A stretch of 58,140 nucleotides of DNA from Anaerolineae bacterium (GTDB lineage Bacteria > Chloroflexota > Anaerolineae > Anaerolineales > Anaerolineaceae), in assembly GCA_013178295.1 (NCBI GenBank), contig JABLWW010000006.1:1-58140 (forward strand). Reading direction: 5' to 3'. Under the pieces are notes generated by a model. It was given only the letters and a program-made list of their open reading frames with translations. It did no database searches and was not told where the DNA came from. The translations under genes and the position numbers were made by a program. Positions 1-40,407 of this stretch are shown piece after piece. The first letter of the stretch is position 1. The number at the start of each line of letters is the position of its first letter.

Positions 1-155
1 AAAGCCAAGAAGAGGAATATACTTGTACATGGGAGCCTCCTTGCCGATTTGTTATTCACAAAACGAAGTTTATCGGTTTTGAGGCTCCTTTCAATATCTC
101 TTGTCCGATCTCATGTCCGAAGTTCAGGGCAAACATTCTACTGACTGAAGAAGGC

Positions 156-1787
156 TTGCCGATGCTCTCTGATTTTGGCATTGCCAAGATTCTCGAACAG
201 GAAGAGACAACTGCTCTCACGGGCACAGGCGTTGGCATAGGCACGCCCGAATACATGTCGCCGGAGCAGGGAATGGGACATGGGGTTGATCACCGTACAG
301 ATATTTATTCACTCGGTGTTGTTCTGTATGAGCTGATCACCGGCAGAAAACCCTTCCAGGCAGATACTCCTATGGCGGTGGTTCTCAAACACATCACCGA
401 GCCGCTCCCCAGACCAAAGTCAGTTGTCCCCGATCTTCCGGATCGTGTGGAGAAAGTTATCTTTAAGGCGTTGGCGAAACAGCCGGATGAGCGTTATCAG
501 AGCATGAGCGCCTTTGCCTCTGCTTTGGAGGAGATCGCCTACGAAAAACTGCCGCAAGCAACGTTGACAGACGAAAAACTGACGGCGGATAACGTTTTGC
601 ACAAAGACACGGCAGCAGTTCTTCCGCAGCGCATCATGGATAGACAGCCTTCACCAATGCCTGTTTTTCAGCCTGTTTCTCCCGTTGTTTCACACCCTCC
701 CCCTCCTTTGCCTGCCCGTCAGGCTGGCGTGGTGAGTGCGAGACCCCCTGCTGTCAGAAAAGGGGCTTTTCCCGCGCTGGGGGGGATGGCTTTGATTGCG
801 GTGCTGCTCGTTGCCGGGGTTCTGGCGCTGGCGGGTCTGGTGTATGTGCTTTACGGCACACAGACGGTTTCTCAAAGCCAAGACCGGCTGGCAACCCTGG
901 TTGCCCAAACGGAGACCGTTTTTTCTCTAATGCGCGAGACAGACCTGGCAGGCACGTTTACCGCCCTGACATCAACCGCGCAGATGCAGGCGTCTCTCCC
1001 TGCGACTGCAAGCCCCTCTCCTGTCATAACGGTTTCAAATACCCCGCCCCCGTGTAGCAATCAGGCGGCGTTTGTGGCTGATGTGACTATCCCGGATGGC
1101 GCAGAATTGCCCCCGTATAAGGATTTTGTCAAGACATGGCGTTTGAGAAACGATGGGACATGCACCTGGACATCGGGCTACCAGATCGTATTTGACAGCG
1201 GCTATCAAATGGGGGGTCCGGTTTCAAAAATGCTGACCTCTGCGGATGTTCAGCCGGGAGGCACACTGGATATCTCCGTTAATCTGACCGCGCCTTCGGA
1301 TGCAGGGACATACCGCGGAAACTGGTGTTTGCAGTCGGCGAATGGTGAACGATTTGGCATCGGCGCAGATGCGGCGCATTGCCTTTATGTGCAAATCAAG
1401 GTGGTCAACCCGCTGGCAACAACCTCGTCTTCGGGGGACACCTCCGGCGGCAAGCCAGACCTGCTGATTACCGATATCACCTGGTCGCCCGATCCGCCGA
1501 TCAAGCATACCAATACCCATGTCAAGGTAGCAGTATATAATCAGGGGAATGCGCCAGCCACCAACTTCACTGTGCGCTGGTGGGGGCTGGAGACCTTTGC
1601 CAACCCCAGCTGTGAGTGGAATGTTGCCAGCCTGGTTGCGCACGGCGGGTATGTGCTGGAGTGCGATTTTACGTTTGCCAGCCACTATGCCCCCATGAAC
1701 ACTACTGCACACGTGGATGACGAAAATAATGTCCTCGAAAGCGATGAGAGCAACAACAAGTTCAAGAAAGTCATTGATGTGAATTGA
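156..1787 (+). CDS. Ser/Thr protein kinase, 5'-truncated, with NBR1-like and CARDB ectodomains
   Basis: This is the C-terminal part of a membrane-anchored Hanks-type kinase. Residues 6-8 are the DFG motif and SPE (35-37) is the APE-like motif of the activation segment. The C-lobe runs to about residue 130, followed by a Pro-rich linker, one membrane span (about 208-233), an NBR1-type Ig-like domain (about 300-415, rich in Trp) and a CARDB-like domain (about 432-540). The glycine loop, catalytic Lys and HRD motif are missing. The same frame stays open back to base 3, but only from about base 132 (ANILL) does it resemble a kinase. The Met at 156 is therefore not a natural start. The gene is either broken by a rearrangement or cut by an assembly join. 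The activation segment closely matches that of the kinase at 8157. Confidence 0.8.
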   Translation: MPMLSDFGIAKILEQEETTALTGTGVGIGTPEYMSPEQGMGHGVDHRTDIYSLGVVLYELITGRKPFQADTPMAVVLKHITEPLPRPKSVVPDLPDRVEKVIFKALAKQPDERYQSMSAFASALEEIAYEKLPQATLTDEKLTADNVLHKDTAAVLPQRIMDRQPSPMPVFQPVSPVVSHPPPPLPARQAGVVSARPPAVRKGAFPALGGMALIAVLLVAGVLALAGLVYVLYGTQTVSQSQDRLATLVAQTETVFSLMRETDLAGTFTALTSTAQMQASLPATASPSPVITVSNTPPPCSNQAAFVADVTIPDGAELPPYKDFVKTWRLRNDGTCTWTSGYQIVFDSGYQMGGPVSKMLTSADVQPGGTLDISVNLTAPSDAGTYRGNWCLQSANGERFGIGADAAHCLYVQIKVVNPLATTSSSGDTSGGKPDLLITDITWSPDPPIKHTNTHVKVAVYNQGNAPATNFTVRWWGLETFANPSCEWNVASLVAHGGYVLECDFTFASHYAPMNTTAHVDDENNVLESDESNNKFKKVIDVN

Positions 1788-30300: not shown

Positions 30301-31119
30301 ATGGCAAATAATCCACCAACATTGCTGAACCTGGAAAACATCAGGTTTCCAAATGGCCTGGTTGGGCTGCCGGAGTGGAAGAATTTTAGCCTGCATCAGA
30401 CCATTGATATGATGCCCATTGCTATTTTGCAGTGTAAGGATGAAGAGCGAGTCTCCTTCATTGTATCTAACCCTGCTGGCTGGTTTCCGACGTACCGCTT
30501 TGATGTTTTGGATGACGATATGAAGCTGATCAAAGCCAAAGATGTTACCGATTTGATTGTGCTGGCAATTATCAATGTGGAGACCGACCCCTTTGCGGTA
30601 ACTGCAAACATGCTGGCGCCGCTGTTGATCAACCCCAAGAGCAAGCTGGGGGTCCAGGTAGTTCTGCATAAGAGCCCCTATCTGGCGCGCCAGCCGCTGA
30701 CCATGAAAACAATGGGTATCCGCTTGGAAGAGGGTCTGATGGGGTTGCCGGAATACAAAGAGTATATCCTCCAGATTGTGGACGAATTGATGCCGGTGAT
30801 GCTGCTTGTCAGCCATGACGAGCACAGGATTTCATTCCCTGTGGTCAACCCCTGGCTGGTGGACGCAGACTACGCGCCCAAATTGAGCAAAGAAGACCAG
30901 ATGGCTCTGCGGGTGGGCAGCCAAGATGAACTGGCTTGGTTTGCGATTGTCAACGTGAACAACGATCCAGTTGAAATCACGGTCAACCTCAAGGCGCCCA
31001 TTGTGGTCAACCCGCGCACCGGGGAAGCGCGTCAGGTATTACTTTCACAATCCGGCTACCAAACCATGCAGCCAATCAAGATGTTGGATGTGAGTAAGCT
31101 GCCGCTGCCATCCTCGTGA
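30301..31119 (+). CDS. Protein with two tandem FliW domains
   Basis: A 272-residue protein of two FliW-like halves (about 12-140 and 143-265). Each has the FliW opening (FPNGLVGLPEWKNFSL and LEEGLMGLPEYKEYIL), a central ISF/VSF-V.NP block, LAWFAIVNVNNDP-type strand and a closing N..AP..VNP segment. Canonical FliW is about 150 residues, binds flagellin and allosterically inhibits the RNA-binding protein CsrA. A double-length form is uncommon. No flagellar gene or csrA lies in this window. ATG 30301 has GAGGAGG. Confidence 0.8.
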   Translation: MANNPPTLLNLENIRFPNGLVGLPEWKNFSLHQTIDMMPIAILQCKDEERVSFIVSNPAGWFPTYRFDVLDDDMKLIKAKDVTDLIVLAIINVETDPFAVTANMLAPLLINPKSKLGVQVVLHKSPYLARQPLTMKTMGIRLEEGLMGLPEYKEYILQIVDELMPVMLLVSHDEHRISFPVVNPWLVDADYAPKLSKEDQMALRVGSQDELAWFAIVNVNNDPVEITVNLKAPIVVNPRTGEARQVLLSQSGYQTMQPIKMLDVSKLPLPSS

Positions 31120-31869: not shown

Positions 31870-32265
31870 ATGAAAATAACCATTGATTTTCGGTCCGGAC
31901 TGCCGATTTACGAGCAGATTGTTGAGCAGGTGCGCCGTATGGTGGTAAGCGGTATGTTGAAGCCCGGTGACCAGTTGCCTACAGTGCGCCAGCTGGCAAC
32001 CGAACTGAGAGTTAATTTCAACACGGTGGCGCGGGCGTACCGCATCCTGGATGAAAGCGGTTTGATCTCTACTCAACAAGGGCGCGGCACATATATTTGG
32101 GAAAAGCCTGTTGGGGAAGTCTCGCAAACGCTACGGCAGCGTGCTCTGCAAGCTCTGGCACAACGTTATCTAGAAGAAGGCACACAGCTGGGGTTTGGGT
32201 TTCCTGATTTGGTGGCAGCCATACAAAAACTGGCTGATGCACAAGAAGAGAATCGAAAGTCATGA
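31870..32265 (+). CDS. GntR-family regulator, YtrA subfamily
   Basis: A 131-residue repressor. It has a wHTH of the GntR type (SGLPIYEQIVEQVRRMV, LKPGDQLPTVRQLATELRVNFNTVARAYRILDESG, GRGTYI) and only a short helical tail, which is the mark of the YtrA subfamily. YtrA-type proteins usually repress adjacent transport or envelope-stress genes. Here the operon continues with a slipin and an SdpI-like protein. No ribosome-binding site precedes ATG 31870; the last TACAAT repeat is at leaderless distance. Confidence 0.9.
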   Translation: MKITIDFRSGLPIYEQIVEQVRRMVVSGMLKPGDQLPTVRQLATELRVNFNTVARAYRILDESGLISTQQGRGTYIWEKPVGEVSQTLRQRALQALAQRYLEEGTQLGFGFPDLVAAIQKLADAQEENRKS

Positions 32266-32295
32266 TGGGTGACAAACCCGGAAAGGAGAAATGCA

Positions 32296-33270
32296 ATGAC
32301 TGAAAAGTCGAATCAGCAAATTGAGGCACAAGAGACAGGACGGGGGCGCCAGCAAAATCGTCCGCAGAGACCAGCGGATACTGTCCGTATCAGCGGCGTG
32401 GCGGTTTTTGCCATGTTGTTGTTGATGGGTGTGGCTGTCATCGGGGTGTTGCTGATGGATGGCAGTGTGGCTGATGTGTGGATCGGTGTGTATGTGGTTG
32501 TCTTGACGCTGGCAGGCATCTGCTGTCTATATGCGATTAAAGTTGCCCGTCAGTGGGAAAAAGCTGTCGTTCTGCGCCTGGGGAAGTTTCAGGGGTTGCG
32601 CGGTCCTGGGCTGTTCTGGGTCTTTCCGGTACTGGATTATATTCCGGTTTGGATTGACCACCGTGTGATGGTAACGCCCTTTAACGCCGAGAAAACCTTG
32701 ACCAAGGATACTGTGCCAGTGGATGTGGATGCGGTGCTATTCTGGATGGTGTGGGATGCCGAAAAGGCGGCGCTTGAGGTAGAGGATTACCGCACTGCCA
32801 TCACCTGGGCGGCGCAAACCGCGCTGCGCGAGGTGATTGGACAGATGCCTCTGGCGGATATCCTGGTGGGGCGGGCAAAGATGGACGCGGATTTGCAGAA
32901 GATTATTGACGAACGCACGACCCCCTGGGGAATTTCCGTGCAAAGCGTCGAGATTCGCGACATCATTATTCCGCAGGGCTTGGAAGATGCCATGAGCCGC
33001 CAAGCACAGGCTGAACGTGAACGTCAGGCGCGCGTGATTTTGGGTGAGTCGGAAAAGCAGATTGCAGCCAGTTTTGCCGAGGCATCTCAGGCATATCTCA
33101 ACAATCCTACTGCCCTGCACCTGCGGGCGATGAATATGCTATTTGAGGGCTTGAAGGAAAAGGGCGCTCTGGTGATTGTTCCAAGCAGCGCGGTGGATAC
33201 GATGAATCTGGGCGGCATCAGCGGACTGGTTTCGCTGGCGCAGACCCAGCAGCCAGGTAGTCAGACGTAG
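32296..33270 (+). CDS. Slipin / SPFH-domain membrane protein
   Basis: A 324-residue stomatin-like protein. Two hydrophobic segments (about 34-55 and 62-82) anchor it, followed by the SPFH core: EKAVVLRLGKFQGLRGPG, IDHRVMVTPF, VPVDVDAVLFWMV, QTALREVIGQMPLADIL and a helical tail (MSRQAQAERERQAR). Slipins scaffold membrane microdomains and often occur with NfeD-like proteases; none is nearby. The start is ATG 32296 with AAGGAG. It is 30 bases after the GntR gene, so probably regulated by it. Confidence 0.92.
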   Translation: MTEKSNQQIEAQETGRGRQQNRPQRPADTVRISGVAVFAMLLLMGVAVIGVLLMDGSVADVWIGVYVVVLTLAGICCLYAIKVARQWEKAVVLRLGKFQGLRGPGLFWVFPVLDYIPVWIDHRVMVTPFNAEKTLTKDTVPVDVDAVLFWMVWDAEKAALEVEDYRTAITWAAQTALREVIGQMPLADILVGRAKMDADLQKIIDERTTPWGISVQSVEIRDIIIPQGLEDAMSRQAQAERERQARVILGESEKQIAASFAEASQAYLNNPTALHLRAMNMLFEGLKEKGALVIVPSSAVDTMNLGGISGLVSLAQTQQPGSQT

Positions 33271-33337
33271 AACGCCGCCTTCAAAACAAGAAAACGTCGT
33301 TACAGGATGTTTGATCCGTCGGATGCAAAGGAGAAAA

Positions 33338-33991
33338 GTGATTACGCGTAGAACAGGCTTGGGTTTGCTGATGATTGTGCTGTTGATGCTTGCTGCCAGT
33401 GCCCTGACATATCCGGTGCTGCCTGAGAGAGTTGCCACACACTGGAATGCGCAAGGACAGGCAGATGGATATGGTAGCCGTTTTTTGGCTGTTAGTTTTT
33501 TGCCGCTGCTCACCGCTGGCATTGTGTTGCTGCTCTCGTTTCTTCCAGCGATCGACCCGCTTAAGACGAACCTGTATCACTTTCGCAGGGAGTACAACGG
33601 TTTTGTGCTGTTATTTGCTGGTTTTATGGCATACATCCATTTTCTCACGCTGGCATGGAACCTGGGTTGGCAAATTGATATGGTGCGGGCGTTTGTGCCG
33701 GCATTTGCCATTTTGAGTTATTTTATTGGGGCGCTGCTTTCTAAGGCGCGCCGCAACTGGTTTGTCGGCATTCGCACACCGTGGACGTTGAGCAGCGATG
33801 TCGTGTGGGAACGGACACATCGCGCCGCCTCCCTCTGGTTCAAGCTGGCAGCGGCAGTATCCTTGTTAGGATTGTTGTTTGCCCGCTTTGCGTTTCTTTT
33901 TGTCATTGTCCCTCTACTGCTTGTTGCGTTGGCGGCGGTGGTGCTGTCGTATATTGAGTACCTGCGTTTGACATCGTCGGGTACAGATTGA
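33338..33991 (+). CDS. SdpI-family (DUF1648) membrane protein
   Basis: About 217 residues with six hydrophobic segments. The DUF1648 block is LTYPVLPERVATHWNAQGQADGY and the SdpI signature is WFVGIRTPWTLSSDVVWERTHR. SdpI of Bacillus subtilis gives immunity against the SdpC toxin and also signals to a repressor. The start GTG 33338 has AAGGAG at five bases; an ATG at 33323 is a weaker alternative. The operon with a YtrA-type repressor and slipin suggests an envelope-stress or bacteriocin-defence role, which is inference. Confidence 0.85.
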   Translation: MITRRTGLGLLMIVLLMLAASALTYPVLPERVATHWNAQGQADGYGSRFLAVSFLPLLTAGIVLLLSFLPAIDPLKTNLYHFRREYNGFVLLFAGFMAYIHFLTLAWNLGWQIDMVRAFVPAFAILSYFIGALLSKARRNWFVGIRTPWTLSSDVVWERTHRAASLWFKLAAAVSLLGLLFARFAFLFVIVPLLLVALAAVVLSYIEYLRLTSSGTD

Positions 33992-33993
33992 AT

Positions 33994-34009
33994 TGTTTCA
34001 CGTGAAACA
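33994..34009 (+). promoter_or_regulatory. parS site, copy 1
   Basis: TGTTTCACGTGAAACA, a perfect match to the bacterial ParB-binding consensus, begins three bases after the SdpI stop. Confidence 0.93.
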
Positions 34010-34029
34010 AGGTGCCCGTTTGCCAGAGA

Positions 34030-34045
34030 TGTTTCACGTGAAACA
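34030..34045 (+). promoter_or_regulatory. parS site, copy 2
   Basis: A second perfect TGTTTCACGTGAAACA, 36 bases from the first centre to centre. parA and parB are not in this window. Confidence 0.93.
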
Positions 34046-34054
34046 TGTTTTATA

Positions 34055-34070
34055 ATGACCAATCGGTCAT
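34055..34070 (+). promoter_or_regulatory. TetR-type palindrome, second copy
   Basis: ATGACCAATCGGTCAT differs by one base, in the spacer, from the operator at 15171. The arms here extend to nine bases (ATAATGACC/GGTCATTAT). It lies between convergent genes with no obvious target promoter, ten bases after the second parS site. Confidence 0.55.
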
Positions 34071-34075
34071 TATTA

Positions 34076-34115
34076 TTTTGCCCCGCAGTGTCGTTTGGGT
34101 TGCTGCGGGGCAAAA
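34076..34115. terminator. Bidirectional terminator
   Basis: A 13-base stem TTTTGCCCCGCAG/CTGCGGGGCAAAA with T-runs in both directions, serving the SdpI operon and the SIMPL gene. Confidence 0.9.
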
Positions 34116-34142: not shown

Positions 34143-34943
34143 TTACTGTATCTGATACGTCAGGTTGACATCTACACTGACCATCATTTGCCCTGCGGAG
34201 ACCGGCACACTGGATTGCGTGGCTGCCATCCCGCCGCCTCCCATTCCCCAAGTGTCGTATCTGGGAGTGGGAGAGGCAGTGCCAACAACCTGAATGCTCT
34301 CCAGAATCCCCAGTTGTACTCCGGCAGCTTTTGCCAGTTCCTCTGCCTGTTTGCGGGCGTTTTCGACTGCTTTCTGGCGCGCCTCGCTGTAAGCTTTCTC
34401 CTTGTTCTGTACGTCAAACTGTACGCCATTGATGCTGTTGGCACCGGCGCGCACAGCGGCATCCAGAATTGCACCCAGTTTGGAGAGATCACGCACGGTA
34501 ACGTAGACGCTGTTGTCCACCATGTAGATAACGCCAGTGATCTCGCCCCCTTGATCATATTGCTGTTGGGGATAGATGTTGAAGTTGCTGGTTTGGATAT
34601 CCGCCGCACTAACACCCATTTTCTTCAGCGCCTCGGCGACGTCTTTAGACTGGTTGGTATTGGTTGCCAGGGCATCCGCCACATTCTTGGACTGGCTGTG
34701 AACGCCGATATTGACATACGCCAGATCAGGGACGATCAACACGCTACCGGTGCCCGAGACGATGATCTGCCGCGTGGGTGATGGATTGCTCTGCGTCAAC
34801 ACCTCTGTGCGGGCTTTCGCACTTGAAGTCTCGAGGCTTGCCGCTTCAACTGCGGTCGTTGTATGAAAAGGCAGGCTGCTGCAGGCTGCCAAACCTAGTG
34901 CCAGAGCCAGGCTTACTAGGATAAAGATTTTTTGTTTGTTCAT
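34143..34943 (-). CDS. SIMPL-domain (DUF541) lipoprotein
   Basis: A 266-residue exported protein. The signal sequence ends at a lipobox (GLAAC). The SIMPL domain follows: RQIIVSGTGSVLIVPDLAYVNIG, ALKKMGVSAADIQTSNFNI, LSKLGAILDAAVRAGANSINGVQF and ARQKAVENARKQAEELAKAAGVQLG. SIMPL proteins are periplasmic or surface proteins with roles in stress or outer-membrane adaptation, largely undefined. ATG 34943 follows AGGAGA. A longer frame upstream has no support. Confidence 0.88.
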   Translation of the reverse strand: MNKQKIFILVSLALALGLAACSSLPFHTTTAVEAASLETSSAKARTEVLTQSNPSPTRQIIVSGTGSVLIVPDLAYVNIGVHSQSKNVADALATNTNQSKDVAEALKKMGVSAADIQTSNFNIYPQQQYDQGGEITGVIYMVDNSVYVTVRDLSKLGAILDAAVRAGANSINGVQFDVQNKEKAYSEARQKAVENARKQAEELAKAAGVQLGILESIQVVGTASPTPRYDTWGMGGGGMAATQSSVPVSAGQMMVSVDVNLTYQIQ

Positions 34944-35114
34944 TTTATTGTTTCTCCTTTGTGTGTGATTTTGCATCTTGCTGAGAATCCAGACGCTGGC
35001 GCGTTGGAGAAAGTTCCTGTTCAAATGGCGTTTTTGAACTGATTTTTTTAAATTGTGAAACTCTAATCTTTTTTTAATACAAAAATTTGAAAATGTGGTA
35101 TATTGTTATTGCTG

Positions 35115-35312: not shown

Positions 35313-36629
35313 ATGAGTGAGAATAGCGTTCGGTTACCCTGGGGCAAAGAGGAAATTGCGCTAACGTTGCCCGAAAACTGGAATCTGCTGGGCGTGATGA
35401 CCCCTGCGGCTCTGGCGGGTGTGGCGGATGTTCAGGCAGAAGTTTTGCGTAGCCTGGAGACCCCTATTGGGTCGCCGCGCCTGGCGGAACTGGCAAAAGC
35501 GGGGATGAAGGTGGCGCTGGTCATTGATGATGACAGCCGCCCGACGCCTGTGGCGGCGCTTCTACCAGCAGTGCTGGCGGAACTGCAACGCGGCGGGGTG
35601 GACATGGAAGATGTTACCGTCATCCCGGCGCTGGGGGTGCACCGCCCAATGACGCTCGAAGAGGTTGGACGGCGCATTGGTCCGCAGGCACTGCCCAGCT
35701 ATCGGGTTGAAACACACGATGGCGACAACCCGGAGAAGCTTGCTTACTTGGGTGAGACCAGCCGCGGCACGCCGGTTTTTGTCAACAAGTGCGCGGCGGA
35801 GTCTGACTTGATTGTGTCTGTGGGTTGTATCGAACCCCATATCATTGCCAGTTTTGGCGGCGGTTATAAGAATATCATTCCCGGTATCGCCGGGCGTTCC
35901 ACCATTGCTGCCAACCATGCCCTCAATTGCGCTCCGACCACCTTCAACAACGTGGGGCAGCCAATTGATAAGAACCCGATGCGTCTTGATCTAGAGGAGG
36001 GCGCGGCGATGCTCACGCCCCCAGTTTTCATTGTCAATGCCGTGCTGAATAGTTCGCTGGAAGTGGTCAGGGTGGTCAGCGGTCATCCGGTGGAGGCACA
36101 CCGCCAGGGTGCAGCGGTCAGCGCTGAAATCTACGGTGTGCAGGTGCCTAAACTGGCAGATGTGGTGATTACCTGCTCGCACCCCATGGATCAGGATCTG
36201 CGCCAGGGGGTCAAAGCTCTGGCGAATACGATACGAGCGTTGAAGAGGGGGGGCGTGATGATCACGCTGGTCAAGGCGGATGAGGGTGTGGGCGTCTTTG
36301 GTCTGGCAAATCGTAAGTTACCGGTGGGGCGCGGCTTACTCAAGCTGCTGGCGCCGCTGCTCCTGCCGCGTGTTCCCAAACTGAAGCTAAAGGGGATGGG
36401 AGAGGAAGACCGCTTTTTCCTGTATTTTGCGCTGCAGGCAATGCTGCACGGCACATTGTTGCTGTATGCACCCACCATTCCACAGGAGATACACGAACGC
36501 CTGCCCTTTGTCAGCTTTGTTGCCAGTGTTGAGGAAGGACTGCAGCGCGCCGGACAGAGGTTCCCGCGTGCGGCTGATGTGCTGGTTTTTCCTAATGGCG
36601 GCAGCACGTACCCTATCCTGCCGTTGTAG
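35313..36629 (+). CDS. LarA-like (DUF2088) nickel-dependent racemase family protein
   Basis: A 438-residue protein of the lactate-racemase catalytic-subunit superfamily. Motifs that hold the Ni-pincer cofactor and catalytic residues are present: DDSRPTP, PALGVHRPMT and GCIEPHIIASFGGGYKNIIPGIAG (His and Lys in place). LarA homologues interconvert 2-hydroxyacids such as lactate or malate. The cofactor-making genes larB, larC and larE are not nearby, so they would act from elsewhere. ATG 35313 has AAAGGA. Confidence 0.88.
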   Translation: MSENSVRLPWGKEEIALTLPENWNLLGVMTPAALAGVADVQAEVLRSLETPIGSPRLAELAKAGMKVALVIDDDSRPTPVAALLPAVLAELQRGGVDMEDVTVIPALGVHRPMTLEEVGRRIGPQALPSYRVETHDGDNPEKLAYLGETSRGTPVFVNKCAAESDLIVSVGCIEPHIIASFGGGYKNIIPGIAGRSTIAANHALNCAPTTFNNVGQPIDKNPMRLDLEEGAAMLTPPVFIVNAVLNSSLEVVRVVSGHPVEAHRQGAAVSAEIYGVQVPKLADVVITCSHPMDQDLRQGVKALANTIRALKRGGVMITLVKADEGVGVFGLANRKLPVGRGLLKLLAPLLLPRVPKLKLKGMGEEDRFFLYFALQAMLHGTLLLYAPTIPQEIHERLPFVSFVASVEEGLQRAGQRFPRAADVLVFPNGGSTYPILPL

Positions 36630-36697
36630 AAAATACACAAACTTTATGACTGTCTAAAAACCGGGCAGGTTTTGCTGGCGGATGCCCGCAGACATAC

Positions 36698-37450
36698 ATG
36701 CGGTTGATGAATCCATTTGCTGTTTGGGTCGGGGTAGGAGCTTCGCTGGGCGTGTGGCGTGTTGCGCGTCATGCGCCGATGAGGCAGGCATCACGATTTT
36801 TGAATGGCGCGCTATTGGTTCTGCTGGGGTGTTTGCTGGGGGCGCGCCTGGCATTTTGCCTGTACCATTATCCCTATTACCGCGCTCATGCCGCACAGGT
36901 TTTTCAATTCTGGCAGGGCGGTCTCAACTGGGAAGGGGCTGTGCTGGGAGGCTTGGGTGTGGTAGCGATATTGTCACTGGTCTGGCGTATGCCCGTTTGG
37001 ACCGTGTTTGAACACATCATGCCCCTCTTGCCACCGCTGGCTGTTACTGTCTGGGTGGGATGCTGGCAGATAGGTATTGGCTACGGAAAGCTGGCACCGG
37101 CAGGGGCGTGGTGGGCGCTGCCATCGCCGGATGAGAGCGGAGCCGTTCTTCCCCGTTTTCCACTGCAATTGATTGCTGCATTGCTGTTGCTGCTCTATTT
37201 TCTTCTTTTGGAACTGCCTCGTGCTGCATGGCTAAATGCTTTGAATTCCGGGCTGCATTGGATGGGTCTGGCGGTCAATTTGCTGGTATTCTCTTTTCTG
37301 AGATGCGATGCTGCGCCGCGCTGGGCGGGCATGCGCTCCGATAGCTGGGCGGCGCTGGTTTTGGCTCTGCTCAGTGTGGCGCTGGTTGGCATCCAGTTGT
37401 GGGCATACAAAAGACGCAGGGAAAAGCAAACAGGCGCAACTATTCTCTAA
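36698..37450 (+). CDS. Lgt-like membrane protein with altered catalytic positions
   Basis: A 250-residue membrane protein with about seven hydrophobic segments. GCLLGARLAFCLYHYPYY and QFWQGGLNWEGAVLGG align with the prolipoprotein diacylglyceryl transferase motifs GARL.Y and W.GGL..HGG. However the HGG His is Glu here, and the GRIGNF.NGE motif is replaced by VGCWQIGIGYGK, so the essential Arg and His appear lost. It may be a non-catalytic paralogue or a different acyl-transfer enzyme. The start is ATG 36698; ATG 36707 is also possible. Confidence 0.6.
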   Translation: MRLMNPFAVWVGVGASLGVWRVARHAPMRQASRFLNGALLVLLGCLLGARLAFCLYHYPYYRAHAAQVFQFWQGGLNWEGAVLGGLGVVAILSLVWRMPVWTVFEHIMPLLPPLAVTVWVGCWQIGIGYGKLAPAGAWWALPSPDESGAVLPRFPLQLIAALLLLLYFLLLELPRAAWLNALNSGLHWMGLAVNLLVFSFLRCDAAPRWAGMRSDSWAALVLALLSVALVGIQLWAYKRRREKQTGATIL

Positions 37451-37465
37451 TCTGCTTTTCCTCCG

Positions 37466-37471
37466 TATAAT
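37466..37471 (+). promoter_or_regulatory. -10 box for the NAD synthetase glutaminase gene, leaderless
   Basis: TATAAT ends nine bases before ATG 37481, with no ribosome-binding site. The -35 (TTCTCT, 17 bases up) is weak. Confidence 0.4.
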
Positions 37472-37480
37472 AAGGTGTAC

Positions 37481-38335
37481 ATGAAGCTCAAACTTGCTCT
37501 TGCACAAATTGCCACACAATTGGGGAATGTCCAGTCCAATCTAGAGAAGCACCTGAGGCTGGCAGAGGAAGCACACCGCGCTGGAGCGCAGCTGGTTGTG
37601 TTTCCTGAGCTTTCGCTGACCGGTTATGTGTTGCAAGACCTGGCGCCTACTGTGGCGCACCGGCCAGATGCAGGTGATCCGATTTTTGAAGCGCTGCTTG
37701 AAACCAGCCGACAAATTGACCTGGTGGTTGGCTTTGTGGAAGAGGATGTGCGCAGCCGCTTTTTTATTTCGGCAGCCTATCTTTCAGATGGCAGGGTGGT
37801 GCATGTGCACCGCAAGGTATATTTGCCCACCTATGGGCTGTTTGACGAGGGGCGTTTTTTTGCCCTGGGCGATCATGTCATGGCGTTCAATACCCGTTTT
37901 GGGCGCATGGGGATGCTTATCTGTGAGGATTTCTGGCATGCTTCACCGCCGTATCTGTTGTGGCTGGATGGCGCCGATTTGTTCATTTTCACCTCTGCCT
38001 CGCCGGGGCGCGGGCTGAAAGGGGGAGATAGGCTTGAATCTTCGAGGTGGGTGGATGACATCAACCGCGGTTATGCCAGCCTGTTTACTTCATTTGTTGT
38101 GCATGTCAATAAGACAGGGTATGAGGACGGTTTGAACTTTCCGGGCGGTTCGGCGGTCTTTGACCCAAATGGGGCGTTGGTGGAACATGCGCCGTATCAT
38201 CAGGAAGCCTTGCAGATGGTTGAATTAGACCTTAATCAGCTGCACCGCACGCGCGCCCGTTTGCCGCTCCTGCGGGATGAGCGCACGACACTCGTGTTGC
38301 GTGAGATGAACCGCATCTTGCATCAACAGGGATAA
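37481..38335 (+). CDS. Nitrilase-fold glutaminase subunit of NAD synthetase
   Basis: A 284-residue CN-hydrolase. The Glu-Lys-Cys triad is visible: Glu in VVFPELSLTGY, Lys in VHRKVYLPTYGLFDEGRFF and Cys in MLICEDFWHASPP. The wording around Lys (LPTYGLFDE.R.F) matches the glutaminase domain of glutamine-dependent NadE rather than other nitrilases. It would hydrolyse glutamine to supply ammonia. The synthetase gene starts four bases after its stop, so the pair probably works as a two-chain enzyme. Confidence 0.88.
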   Translation: MKLKLALAQIATQLGNVQSNLEKHLRLAEEAHRAGAQLVVFPELSLTGYVLQDLAPTVAHRPDAGDPIFEALLETSRQIDLVVGFVEEDVRSRFFISAAYLSDGRVVHVHRKVYLPTYGLFDEGRFFALGDHVMAFNTRFGRMGMLICEDFWHASPPYLLWLDGADLFIFTSASPGRGLKGGDRLESSRWVDDINRGYASLFTSFVVHVNKTGYEDGLNFPGGSAVFDPNGALVEHAPYHQEALQMVELDLNQLHRTRARLPLLRDERTTLVLREMNRILHQQG

Positions 38336-38339
38336 GAGG

Positions 38340-39161
38340 ATGATTGACTTAAGCATCAACACACAGCTGGTTCAAAACATCCTGACTGGCTTTATCCACA
38401 CCGAGATTACCCGCATGGGCTTCTCACGGGCAGTGATTGGACTTTCAGGGGGGATTGACTCGGCGCTTTCCTGCTTTCTGGCAGCCGAGGCGCTGGGCGC
38501 ACAAAACGTGCTGGCGGTGTGTATGCCTTATAAGACCTCTTCGCCCGATTCACTCGAACACGCTCGTCTGGTCATCGAAGCGACCGGTGTGCAATCGTTG
38601 ACAGTCGAGATTACTGAGATGGCAGACCCGTTGATTGCCAGGTTTTCAGAGATGGACGCTGTGCGGCGCGGCAATATTATGGCACGTATGCGCATGGTTG
38701 TTCTCTACGACCAGTCGGCTGCCTTCAATGCCCTCGTGGTTGGCACAGGCAATAAGACCGAAATTCTGTTGGGGTATACAACCCTGTATGGTGATTCGGC
38801 ATGTGCTATCAACCCAATCGGCGACCTCTATAAAACCCAGGTGCGCCAGCTGGCGCGGGCAATGGGCGTGCCCGAAGCGGTTCTCAGCAAAGCCCCTTCG
38901 GCAGACCTGTGGAAGGGGCAGACAGATGAGGGTGAACTGGGGTTTACATACGCCGAGGTTGACCAGCTGCTCTACCTGCTGGTGGATGAGCGTTATACGC
39001 CAGCCGAGTGCATCGAGGCGGGGTTTGCAGAGCCATTTGTCCAGGCGGTAGTGCGGCGCGTGCAGCGCAACCAGTTTAAGCGCGTTCTGCCTCCCATTGC
39101 CAAACTCAGTAACCGCACGGTAGGGTACGACTTTCTATATCTTCGCGACTGGGGTACATAA
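38340..39161 (+). CDS. nadE: NAD+ synthetase (ammonia-type domain)
   Basis: A 273-residue N-type ATP-pyrophosphatase. The P-loop is GLSGGIDSALS, followed by PYKTSSPDSLEHA, GTGNKTEILLGY.TLYGD and PSADLWKGQTDEGELGFTY, all hallmarks of NadE. It makes NAD from deamido-NAD, the last step of NAD synthesis. It lacks an attached glutaminase domain, which is encoded by the gene just upstream. Confidence 0.95.
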   Translation: MIDLSINTQLVQNILTGFIHTEITRMGFSRAVIGLSGGIDSALSCFLAAEALGAQNVLAVCMPYKTSSPDSLEHARLVIEATGVQSLTVEITEMADPLIARFSEMDAVRRGNIMARMRMVVLYDQSAAFNALVVGTGNKTEILLGYTTLYGDSACAINPIGDLYKTQVRQLARAMGVPEAVLSKAPSADLWKGQTDEGELGFTYAEVDQLLYLLVDERYTPAECIEAGFAEPFVQAVVRRVQRNQFKRVLPPIAKLSNRTVGYDFLYLRDWGT

Positions 39162-39174
39162 TCCTTTGCACAAG

Positions 39175-40407
39175 ATGCGCTTGACATTCCCGCCTGCATT
39201 GCGGCATCGTCAATACGCGCTGTTTTGGGGTGGTTTGATGGTTTCGCTGGCAGGCTCCCAGATGCAGCTGGCTGCGGTGCTCTGGCACTTGCGCACGCTG
39301 AGCGACCAGCCGGTGGTGGTAACCGGTATTGGTCTGGCGCGCTTTTTGCCCATCCTTTTATTTGCCCCGCTGGGCGGTTTGGTGGCAGATTGGTTTAACC
39401 GCCGCCGCGTGCTTTTTGTGACCCAAACAGCACAACTGGCAGTGGCACTGGCGTTGGGGATGCTGACGCTCTCAGGCAGGGTGACCGTCTGGCATATTTA
39501 CTTCTTGAGCGCTTTGCAGGCGCTGGCAATGTCGTTCGATTTACCAGCGCGCCAGTCCATTGTTTCCAACCTGGTTCCGGATGCAGAATTGTCCAGCGCC
39601 TTCAGTCTTCAGTCAATTGCCTTTAACACCGGCGCTATCGTTGGCCCTGCCCTGGGCGGAAGTGTTATTGCCTATCTTGGGCAGGAGTATACCTATTTGA
39701 TCAATGCCATGACTTTTGTCGTTGTTTTGCTGGCTTTGCTCTGGATGGGTGAAGTGGCGCAGGAGACGCCTTCTCAACCGAGGAGTGTCTTCAATGGGTT
39801 TCAATCCATTGCGGAGGGGGTGCAGTTTATCATGCGCAAGCCGGTTATCCTTTCGGCAATGATTTTGGATTTTATTGCCACCTTTTTTGCTTCGGCAAAT
39901 TATCTGCTTCCGTTTGTGGTCAGGGATGTCCTCCATGTGGGTGAAATACAATACGGCTGGCTGGCTTCGGCGCAGGCAATTGGCGCAGTGGGCGTTGGGT
40001 TGCTTGTTTCGCAGCGTGCCAGGATTCGGCGGCAGGGTGTTTTAATTTTGTTCTCCGTGATTGGTTTTGGGCTTGCCACCTTCGGTTTTGGGCTGGCAAA
40101 GACATTTGCATTTGCGATGTTGGCATTGATTCTGGTAGGCGCCAGCGATTCGCTCAGCACGATTCTGCGCAATACCCTGCGCCAGATGCTGACCCCCGAT
40201 TCGCTGCGCGGACGGATGGTGAGCATCAATCAGATATTTTTTATCGGCGGCCCACAGCTGGGGGAAATTGAAGCCGGTATGGTGGCGCAGGCATTTGGTA
40301 CCCAGGCGGCGATTCTTTCTGGAGGGGTGTTATGTGTTCTGGGGGCGTTGGTGATCGCCCGCTGCTGGCCGCAGCTAGCGCGCTACACGGATGAAAGCCG
40401 AACGTAA
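39175..40407 (+). CDS. MFS transporter (MFS_3 / EntS-like)
   Basis: A 410-residue protein with twelve predicted membrane segments. The loop-2/3 motif (GGLVADWFNRRRVLF) and the SLQSIAFNTGAIVGPALGG block are typical of the MFS_3 group, which includes siderophore and drug exporters. The C-half loop is RMVSINQIFFIGGPQLGEIEAG. No substrate can be read from the context. ATG 39175 is used; the upstream TTG has no support. It follows nadE closely. Confidence 0.88.
   Translation: MRLTFPPALRHRQYALFWGGLMVSLAGSQMQLAAVLWHLRTLSDQPVVVTGIGLARFLPILLFAPLGGLVADWFNRRRVLFVTQTAQLAVALALGMLTLSGRVTVWHIYFLSALQALAMSFDLPARQSIVSNLVPDAELSSAFSLQSIAFNTGAIVGPALGGSVIAYLGQEYTYLINAMTFVVVLLALLWMGEVAQETPSQPRSVFNGFQSIAEGVQFIMRKPVILSAMILDFIATFFASANYLLPFVVRDVLHVGEIQYGWLASAQAIGAVGVGLLVSQRARIRRQGVLILFSVIGFGLATFGFGLAKTFAFAMLALILVGASDSLSTILRNTLRQMLTPDSLRGRMVSINQIFFIGGPQLGEIEAGMVAQAFGTQAAILSGGVLCVLGALVIARCWPQLARYTDESRT

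Follow-up and report, generated by a model that had tools for sequence, protein, structure and literature searches.

A Pair of parS Palindromes as the Likely Chromosomal Centromere of an Anaerolineae Bacterium

Two identical palindromes stand side by side between the ends of two convergent genes in the genome of an Anaerolineae bacterium, and the question they raise is whether they form the centromere of the chromosome or serve some other purpose. In the working model of chromosomal ParABS systems, ParB loads at parS with CTP, slides and condenses the surrounding DNA, on which ParA and SMC act. We hold with high confidence that the pair is the parS centromere of the chromosome, a reading supported by its uniqueness and exactness, by genes for ParB, a ParA-like protein and SMC in the same genome, by the recurrence of the pair in relatives and by its linkage to DnaA-box arrays there. 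The window, by which we mean the whole stretch of DNA analyzed, 58,140 nucleotides in length, forms the left end of contig C18 (218,130 bases), in an assembly (G000) of 3.95 Mb in 21 contigs, with 97.8% completeness and 4.95% contamination.

The doublet and its surroundings

An exact-match search places perfect copies of TGTTTCACGTGAAACA, the 16-bp palindrome of chromosomal parS, at positions 33,994-34,009 and 34,030-34,045 of the window, with a spacer of 20 bp (34,010-34,029) between them and a total length for the doublet of 52 bp (strands are given here for genes only, the other features being unstranded). The original prediction had described two perfect parS sites matching the consensus exactly, 36 bp apart, in a gene-free terminator region between convergent genes, and this description holds, the 36 bp being the distance from start to start and the 20 bp the actual gap; the interval it had delimited, ending at 34,070, also covers most of a separate dyad. 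The first copy starts 2 nt past the stop codon of a gene for an SdpI/DUF1648 membrane protein (33,311-33,991, plus strand), toward which a SIMPL (DUF541) gene (34,143-35,024, minus strand) is transcribed, and no gene is visible between the two. The SdpI gene is preceded by a Band 7/SPFH gene (32,269-33,270, plus strand) and a GntR-family regulator gene (31,870-32,265, plus strand), all three being recurrent neighbors of parS loci, and genes for LarA-like, Lgt, CN-hydrolase, NadE, and MFS proteins (35,313-40,407, plus strand) likewise stand close to parS at 3 to 5 of the loci of relatives. No protein similar to the SIMPL gene product was found in the 26 other stretches compared. A FliW-family gene is also present, at 30,301-31,119, about 3 kb to the left of parS.

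The separate dyad, ATAATGACC-AATC-GGTCATTAT (34,052-34,073), lies directly behind the second copy and can form a hairpin of 9 pairs followed by a T-rich tail. It looks like a terminator or like an operator of the TetR family; it is placed between convergent genes, where a promoter would not be needed. A further, G+C-rich hairpin with A/T runs on both sides, recognized by RNA folding at 34,076-34,115, is the probable bidirectional terminator of the SdpI and SIMPL genes; a terminator scan did not pick this hairpin, whose loop exceeds the limit of the scan.

With at most one mismatch allowed, a scan of the whole 3.95-Mb assembly recovers the two sites of the window and none else, where chance would give 0.0006 exact sites and 0.03 sites with up to one mismatch in a genome of such size at the base composition of the window. 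The genome-wide check for a scattered motif that had been proposed with the original prediction thus found no scatter. With two mismatches allowed, three sites are recovered, the window pair and C12:160543, this last being at background level, since 0.73 such sites are expected by chance and the control, a reversed pattern, likewise has 3 sites at up to two mismatches (0 at up to one).

Partition genes and the Noc alternative

The best match to ParB in the genome is at C12:105346 (TIGR00180, 193 bits, against a cut-off of 58), so that parB exists, as the original prediction needed, and lies outside the window, from which parAB had correctly been noted to be absent. Directly upstream of it, and filling the place of a ParA partner, is a ParA-like gene of 264 aa with a KGGVGKTT motif, whose product matches NCBIfam models of the ParA/MinD type (best 98 bits, the best 25 all below curated cut-offs). 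The parA and parB genes abut or overlap, as judged from predicted start codons (L180:10086-11751, G000 C12); a PfkB-type gene comes before them and an amidohydrolase gene after. A full-length SMC is encoded on contig C19 (931 bits).

A ParB-like protein could also be a Noc-like factor of nucleoid occlusion or a gene-regulating paralog, in which case the sites would serve these functions and not partition, a reading we consider very unlikely. Noc and its NBS sites resemble the present system in protein family and in site length but have dispersed sites and other recognition residues, and the NBS sequence differs from that of parS. The ParB in question does match the Noc model, at 233 bits, below the cut-off of 315, and in our reading of the alignment it shares with Noc the K at what is numbered position 184; there is in addition a second, weak ParB-like gene on C21, at 51 bits, below the cut-off. 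However, when aligned with the Noc structure 7ng0, the protein has R and G at the two positions that determine parS recognition, and not the Q and R of Noc, and in the accessible portion of PMC7383237 R173 and G201 are described as "absolutely conserved" in extant ParB orthologs, with Q173 and R201 in Noc. The match to TIGR00180, together with R and G at these positions, is what is expected of the cognate ParB. The same portion of that source has Noc sites spread over the chromosome, as opposed to the one locus found here by a scan for the parS motif. The Noc reading is rejected on the recognition residues.

Recurrence in relatives and probable proximity to the origin

We scanned 61 genomes, the bacterium's own, 36 of the same family and 24 of other families of the order, and 49 of them contain a site that departs from the 16-mer by one mismatch or none. 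Within the family (37 genomes, including the bacterium's own), this strict rule gives at least two sites in 23, one site in 8 and none in 6. With the two outer bases unconstrained, at least two sites are recognized in 28 of the 37, all pairs falling within 1.9 kb, and a single site in four (G005, G006, G028, G033), with no pair or convincing site found under this rule in five (G001, G023, G024, G025, G036). These five weigh against our reading, G025 in particular, which is 99% complete and has a good parB, and whose scan yielded no convincing parS, only isolated one-mismatch 14-mers (3, against 6 in the reversed control). For the 28 doublets, the start-to-start spacing of the nearest pair is up to 60 bp in 17 and up to 200 bp in 23, with nine at 36-38 bp; elsewhere the two sites are 112-1806 bp apart, or there is one alone. 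The spacers of the nine doublets at 36-38 bp resemble one another no more than shuffled sequences do (mean 0.37 versus 0.383), and the clustering at this distance may reflect common descent as well as a constraint of helical phase or length.

The genes around the sites recur as well. Twenty-one parS loci were compared for their neighbors, the window and 20 loci of relatives (18 from the family, two from other families), and genes of the SdpI family are present at eight of them, Band 7 genes at seven and GntR genes at nine; in G031 and G007 the SdpI gene is itself flanked by the two parS sites. Another recurrent neighborhood, of dnaN and PPDK_N genes within 10 kb of parS, is seen at six of the 20 loci of relatives (Pfam families being assigned on one member per cluster), and in G011 the parS pair lies between the SdpI side and the dnaN side. 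From the recurrence of one or the other set of neighbors, and from the arrangement in G011, the sites seem to go back to a single ancestral locus, for part of the family at least. In a sample of the phylum, an exact close doublet is found in nine of 251 genomes (the bacterium's own, G017, and G020 among them), a count that is too low because exact cores and a gap of 4-34 bp were demanded.

The conservation of the letters and the variation of the distance between them bear on another reading, highly improbable in our judgment, by which the repeats act as RNA, the two palindrome copies pairing as a 16-bp hairpin and so terminating the SdpI transcript. Folded as RNA, the region does form a stem that pairs the two parS copies (z = -6.4 for the whole region, a value to which the next two hairpins contribute). 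Such a fold is expected wherever a palindrome is doubled, however, and a terminator needs pairing and not the exact letters of parS, which are nonetheless kept; the distance between copies is not kept in other genomes, and two other hairpins stand directly after the doublet. A main role as an RNA hairpin is thus rejected, since it is the sequence and not pairing alone that is kept, and the copy distance is variable. Least credible of all, a relic or a mobile-element centromere without a present role in the chromosome could be suggested by the insertion sequence end at the left end of the window, 34 kb from the pair, but neither copy contains a mismatch, many genera share the locus together with its flanking genes, and the genome offers the ParB that is present no alternative site within one mismatch.

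For the reading as a parS centromere, the position relative to the origin of replication is of importance, and as a sign of oriC we took an array of three DnaA boxes at a fixed spacing of 9-11-9-12-9, with up to 3 mismatches. Such a triple is found in 49 of the 61 genomes (reversed control, 0), while a strict version of it gives arrays in only 15 of the 61 and none in the bacterium's own genome. Both the triple and parS are present in 40 genomes, on the same contig in 18 and on different contigs in 22 (the bacterium's own included), and in all 18 same-contig cases the distance, from start to start, is between 62 bp and 46 kb; these distances are capped by the fragmentation of contigs (the one in G027 measures 5.5 kb), and the cases are not independent because the genomes are related. 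On contigs longer than 4 Mb the array is 12.7 kb (G029) and 29 kb (G047) from parS. The single 2.95-Mb contig of G017 presents an example of another kind: GC skew, as sampled, turns from negative to positive at about 290-296 kb, within about 6 kb of the parS pair at 296,306, and turns back near 1.68 Mb; the DnaA-box triple is absent from this genome at the threshold used. Less in line with our reading, the skew minimum in G029, sampled and noisy, is about 0.15-0.35 Mb from parS, and a clean GC skew was not seen in G047. Together, the arrays within 46 kb in 18 of 18 relatives that have both on one contig and the skew of G017 support the original prediction that the window is probably origin-proximal; in the bacterium's own genome the probable link crosses a contig break.

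Two other markers were of less use. The sign of third-position skew changes within 10 kb on either side of parS at seven of 21 loci, three of these seven in the direction opposite to that of an origin, and for the pair in the window the local skew does not flip within this distance; as such flips are inconsistent, short-range skew alone is no evidence for an origin. The dnaA gene, located on C3 in the bacterium's own genome, is 89 kb from parS in G017, 103 kb in G057 and 3.1 Mb along the contig in G029 (about 1 Mb if counted round its ends), and with its distance to parS varying among genomes it was dropped as an origin marker, the DnaA-box arrays and GC skew being used instead. Two observations on the arrays may be added. 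In G013 (L173:9231-9308) the last box of the triple is 12 bp from parS, and additional triples are found at distances of about 5.4 kb and 18 kb. SpoVS-like and deoxynucleoside kinase genes are found beside the array in several genomes, the bacterium's own included, at L327:9304-9564 and nine further loci (Pfam on one member per cluster).

In the bacterium's own genome, the only DnaA-box triple is located on another contig, at C16:318,781-318,830, 2.4 kb from the contig end. The last gene at this right end of C16 encodes the N-terminal half of a Ser/Thr kinase (positions 1-128 of the Pkinase profile), and the first gene of the window (156-1,787, plus strand) encodes a C-terminal half (138-258), the two halves meeting at the same catalytic-loop residues, with the C16 half ending where the window half begins. 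Beyond the breaks are ends of insertion sequence elements that match each other as an imperfect inverted repeat, in 20 of 24 aligned bases, the one in the window (1-127) being the end of a multicopy element that recurs at several other contig ends. This sequence is also found at the starts of C1, C14, C16, and C17 and at the right end of C18, and the one at the tail of C16 (L327:11130-11254) also at the start of C20; no direct overlap was found among the contig ends compared. From these sequences we infer that an insertion sequence interrupts one kinase gene and that the right end of C16 adjoins the left end of the window, which would place the DnaA-box array at about 36 kb plus the length of the insertion sequence from parS, across the contig break. 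Over its final 120 kb, C16 has a negative sampled skew, and along C18 the values are for the most part weakly positive, a pattern that fits the expectation for an origin at the junction of the two. What counts against this picture of the origin is a second and stronger switch of the origin type, from negative to positive, on the contig of parAB, at 57-82 kb of C12 (L361, L362) and 23-48 kb from parAB; an inversion, a misassembly or something else may be behind it.

Layout of the probable centromere and its meaning

A parAB operon near parS and oriC is the usual arrangement, though not a defining one. In the bacterium's own genome, parAB is not near parS, the former being on C12 and the latter on C18. 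Similarly, parS and the best parB are on different contigs in 44 of the 47 genomes compared (the bacterium's own and relatives), where short contigs do not prove distance, and in the remaining three they are 1.34, 2.57, and 3.32 Mb apart along one contig (in G047 about 1.09 Mb if its 4.40-Mb contig is circular). In G017, one genome, parB at 1,636,741 is about 45 kb from the skew switch of the terminus. An exception is G028, with a second ParB-like gene (119.6 bits) 16.7 kb from parS. Six genomes with doublets are from outside the family, in the phylum sample, and three of these have parB on the contig of the doublet, at about 49, 435, and 437 kb. A literature search at the level of titles and abstracts, with most subscription papers outside its reach, brought up no work dealing with parS in this lineage or with such unlinked parAB.

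Compared to the chromosomal ParABS systems of Bacillus subtilis (Spo0J), Caulobacter and Pseudomonas (ParB), the system described here has the same 16-bp palindrome, a ParB of the same family and a position near a putative origin, and it differs in the single 52-bp doublet of its whole genome and in parAB being on another contig, or, in three relatives, at least 1 Mb away. The Caulobacter cluster, in which five sites or more lie about 8 kb from ori according to PMC5815017, is similar in that closely packed sites near ori make one locus, there being two here and not five or more. Xanthomonas campestris, with a single parS as given in an excerpt of PMC7333895, is similar in the minimal number of sites, here duplicated at one spot. 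Close doublets occur elsewhere too, in at least 119 stretches, and those of Streptomyces, clostridia, Alphaproteobacteria, and others, among the matches listed, consist, as here, of two exact sites, with a gap of 14-26 bp. The evidence thus supports the original reading as correct and the doublet as ordinary chromosomal parS in kind, a kind already known, mildly unusual in that one doublet makes up the whole recognizable centromere and that parB lies on a different contig or no closer than 1 Mb; this layout of one doublet with unlinked parAB is of modest interest.

As to how such a locus would work, ParB produced from the parAB operon elsewhere in the genome would bind each 16-mer as a dimer, and the dimers would close into CTP-bound clamps that slide into the flanking DNA. 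A single partition complex could plausibly be formed by ParB at the doublet, as the original prediction had it, to be moved by ParA, along with the nearby origin, toward the daughter cells, and SMC would be loaded at the same locus. The two sites, 20 bp apart, may let a single complex load from two points and keep one copy in reserve. More copies of parS raise the rate of clamp loading by ParB, as stated in the section of PMC8299390 available, and one parS near oriC suffices, as stated in that of PMC7022226; the doublet therefore most likely adds loading rate and insurance, and no new function.

A more specific view of the family is possible, though we hold it to be rather unlikely: the centromere would be a doublet tuned in its spacing at one locus on the origin side, with a spacer of about 20-22 bp in many genera and of free sequence, from which two ParB clamps load together in a set geometry, parAB having moved away from the region of the origin and, in the single contig of one genome, come to lie no more than about 45 kb from the terminus. 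If this is true, ParB dosage would follow ter and not ori.

In terms of the biology of the lineage, the finding fixes its likely centromere and, by inference, the side of the origin, and it presents one simple target for studies of ParB binding. Why the number and the clustering of parS vary is posed as a question in the accessible text of PMC7333895, and a centromere of one doublet with unlinked parAB may be considered a clean natural case for addressing it.
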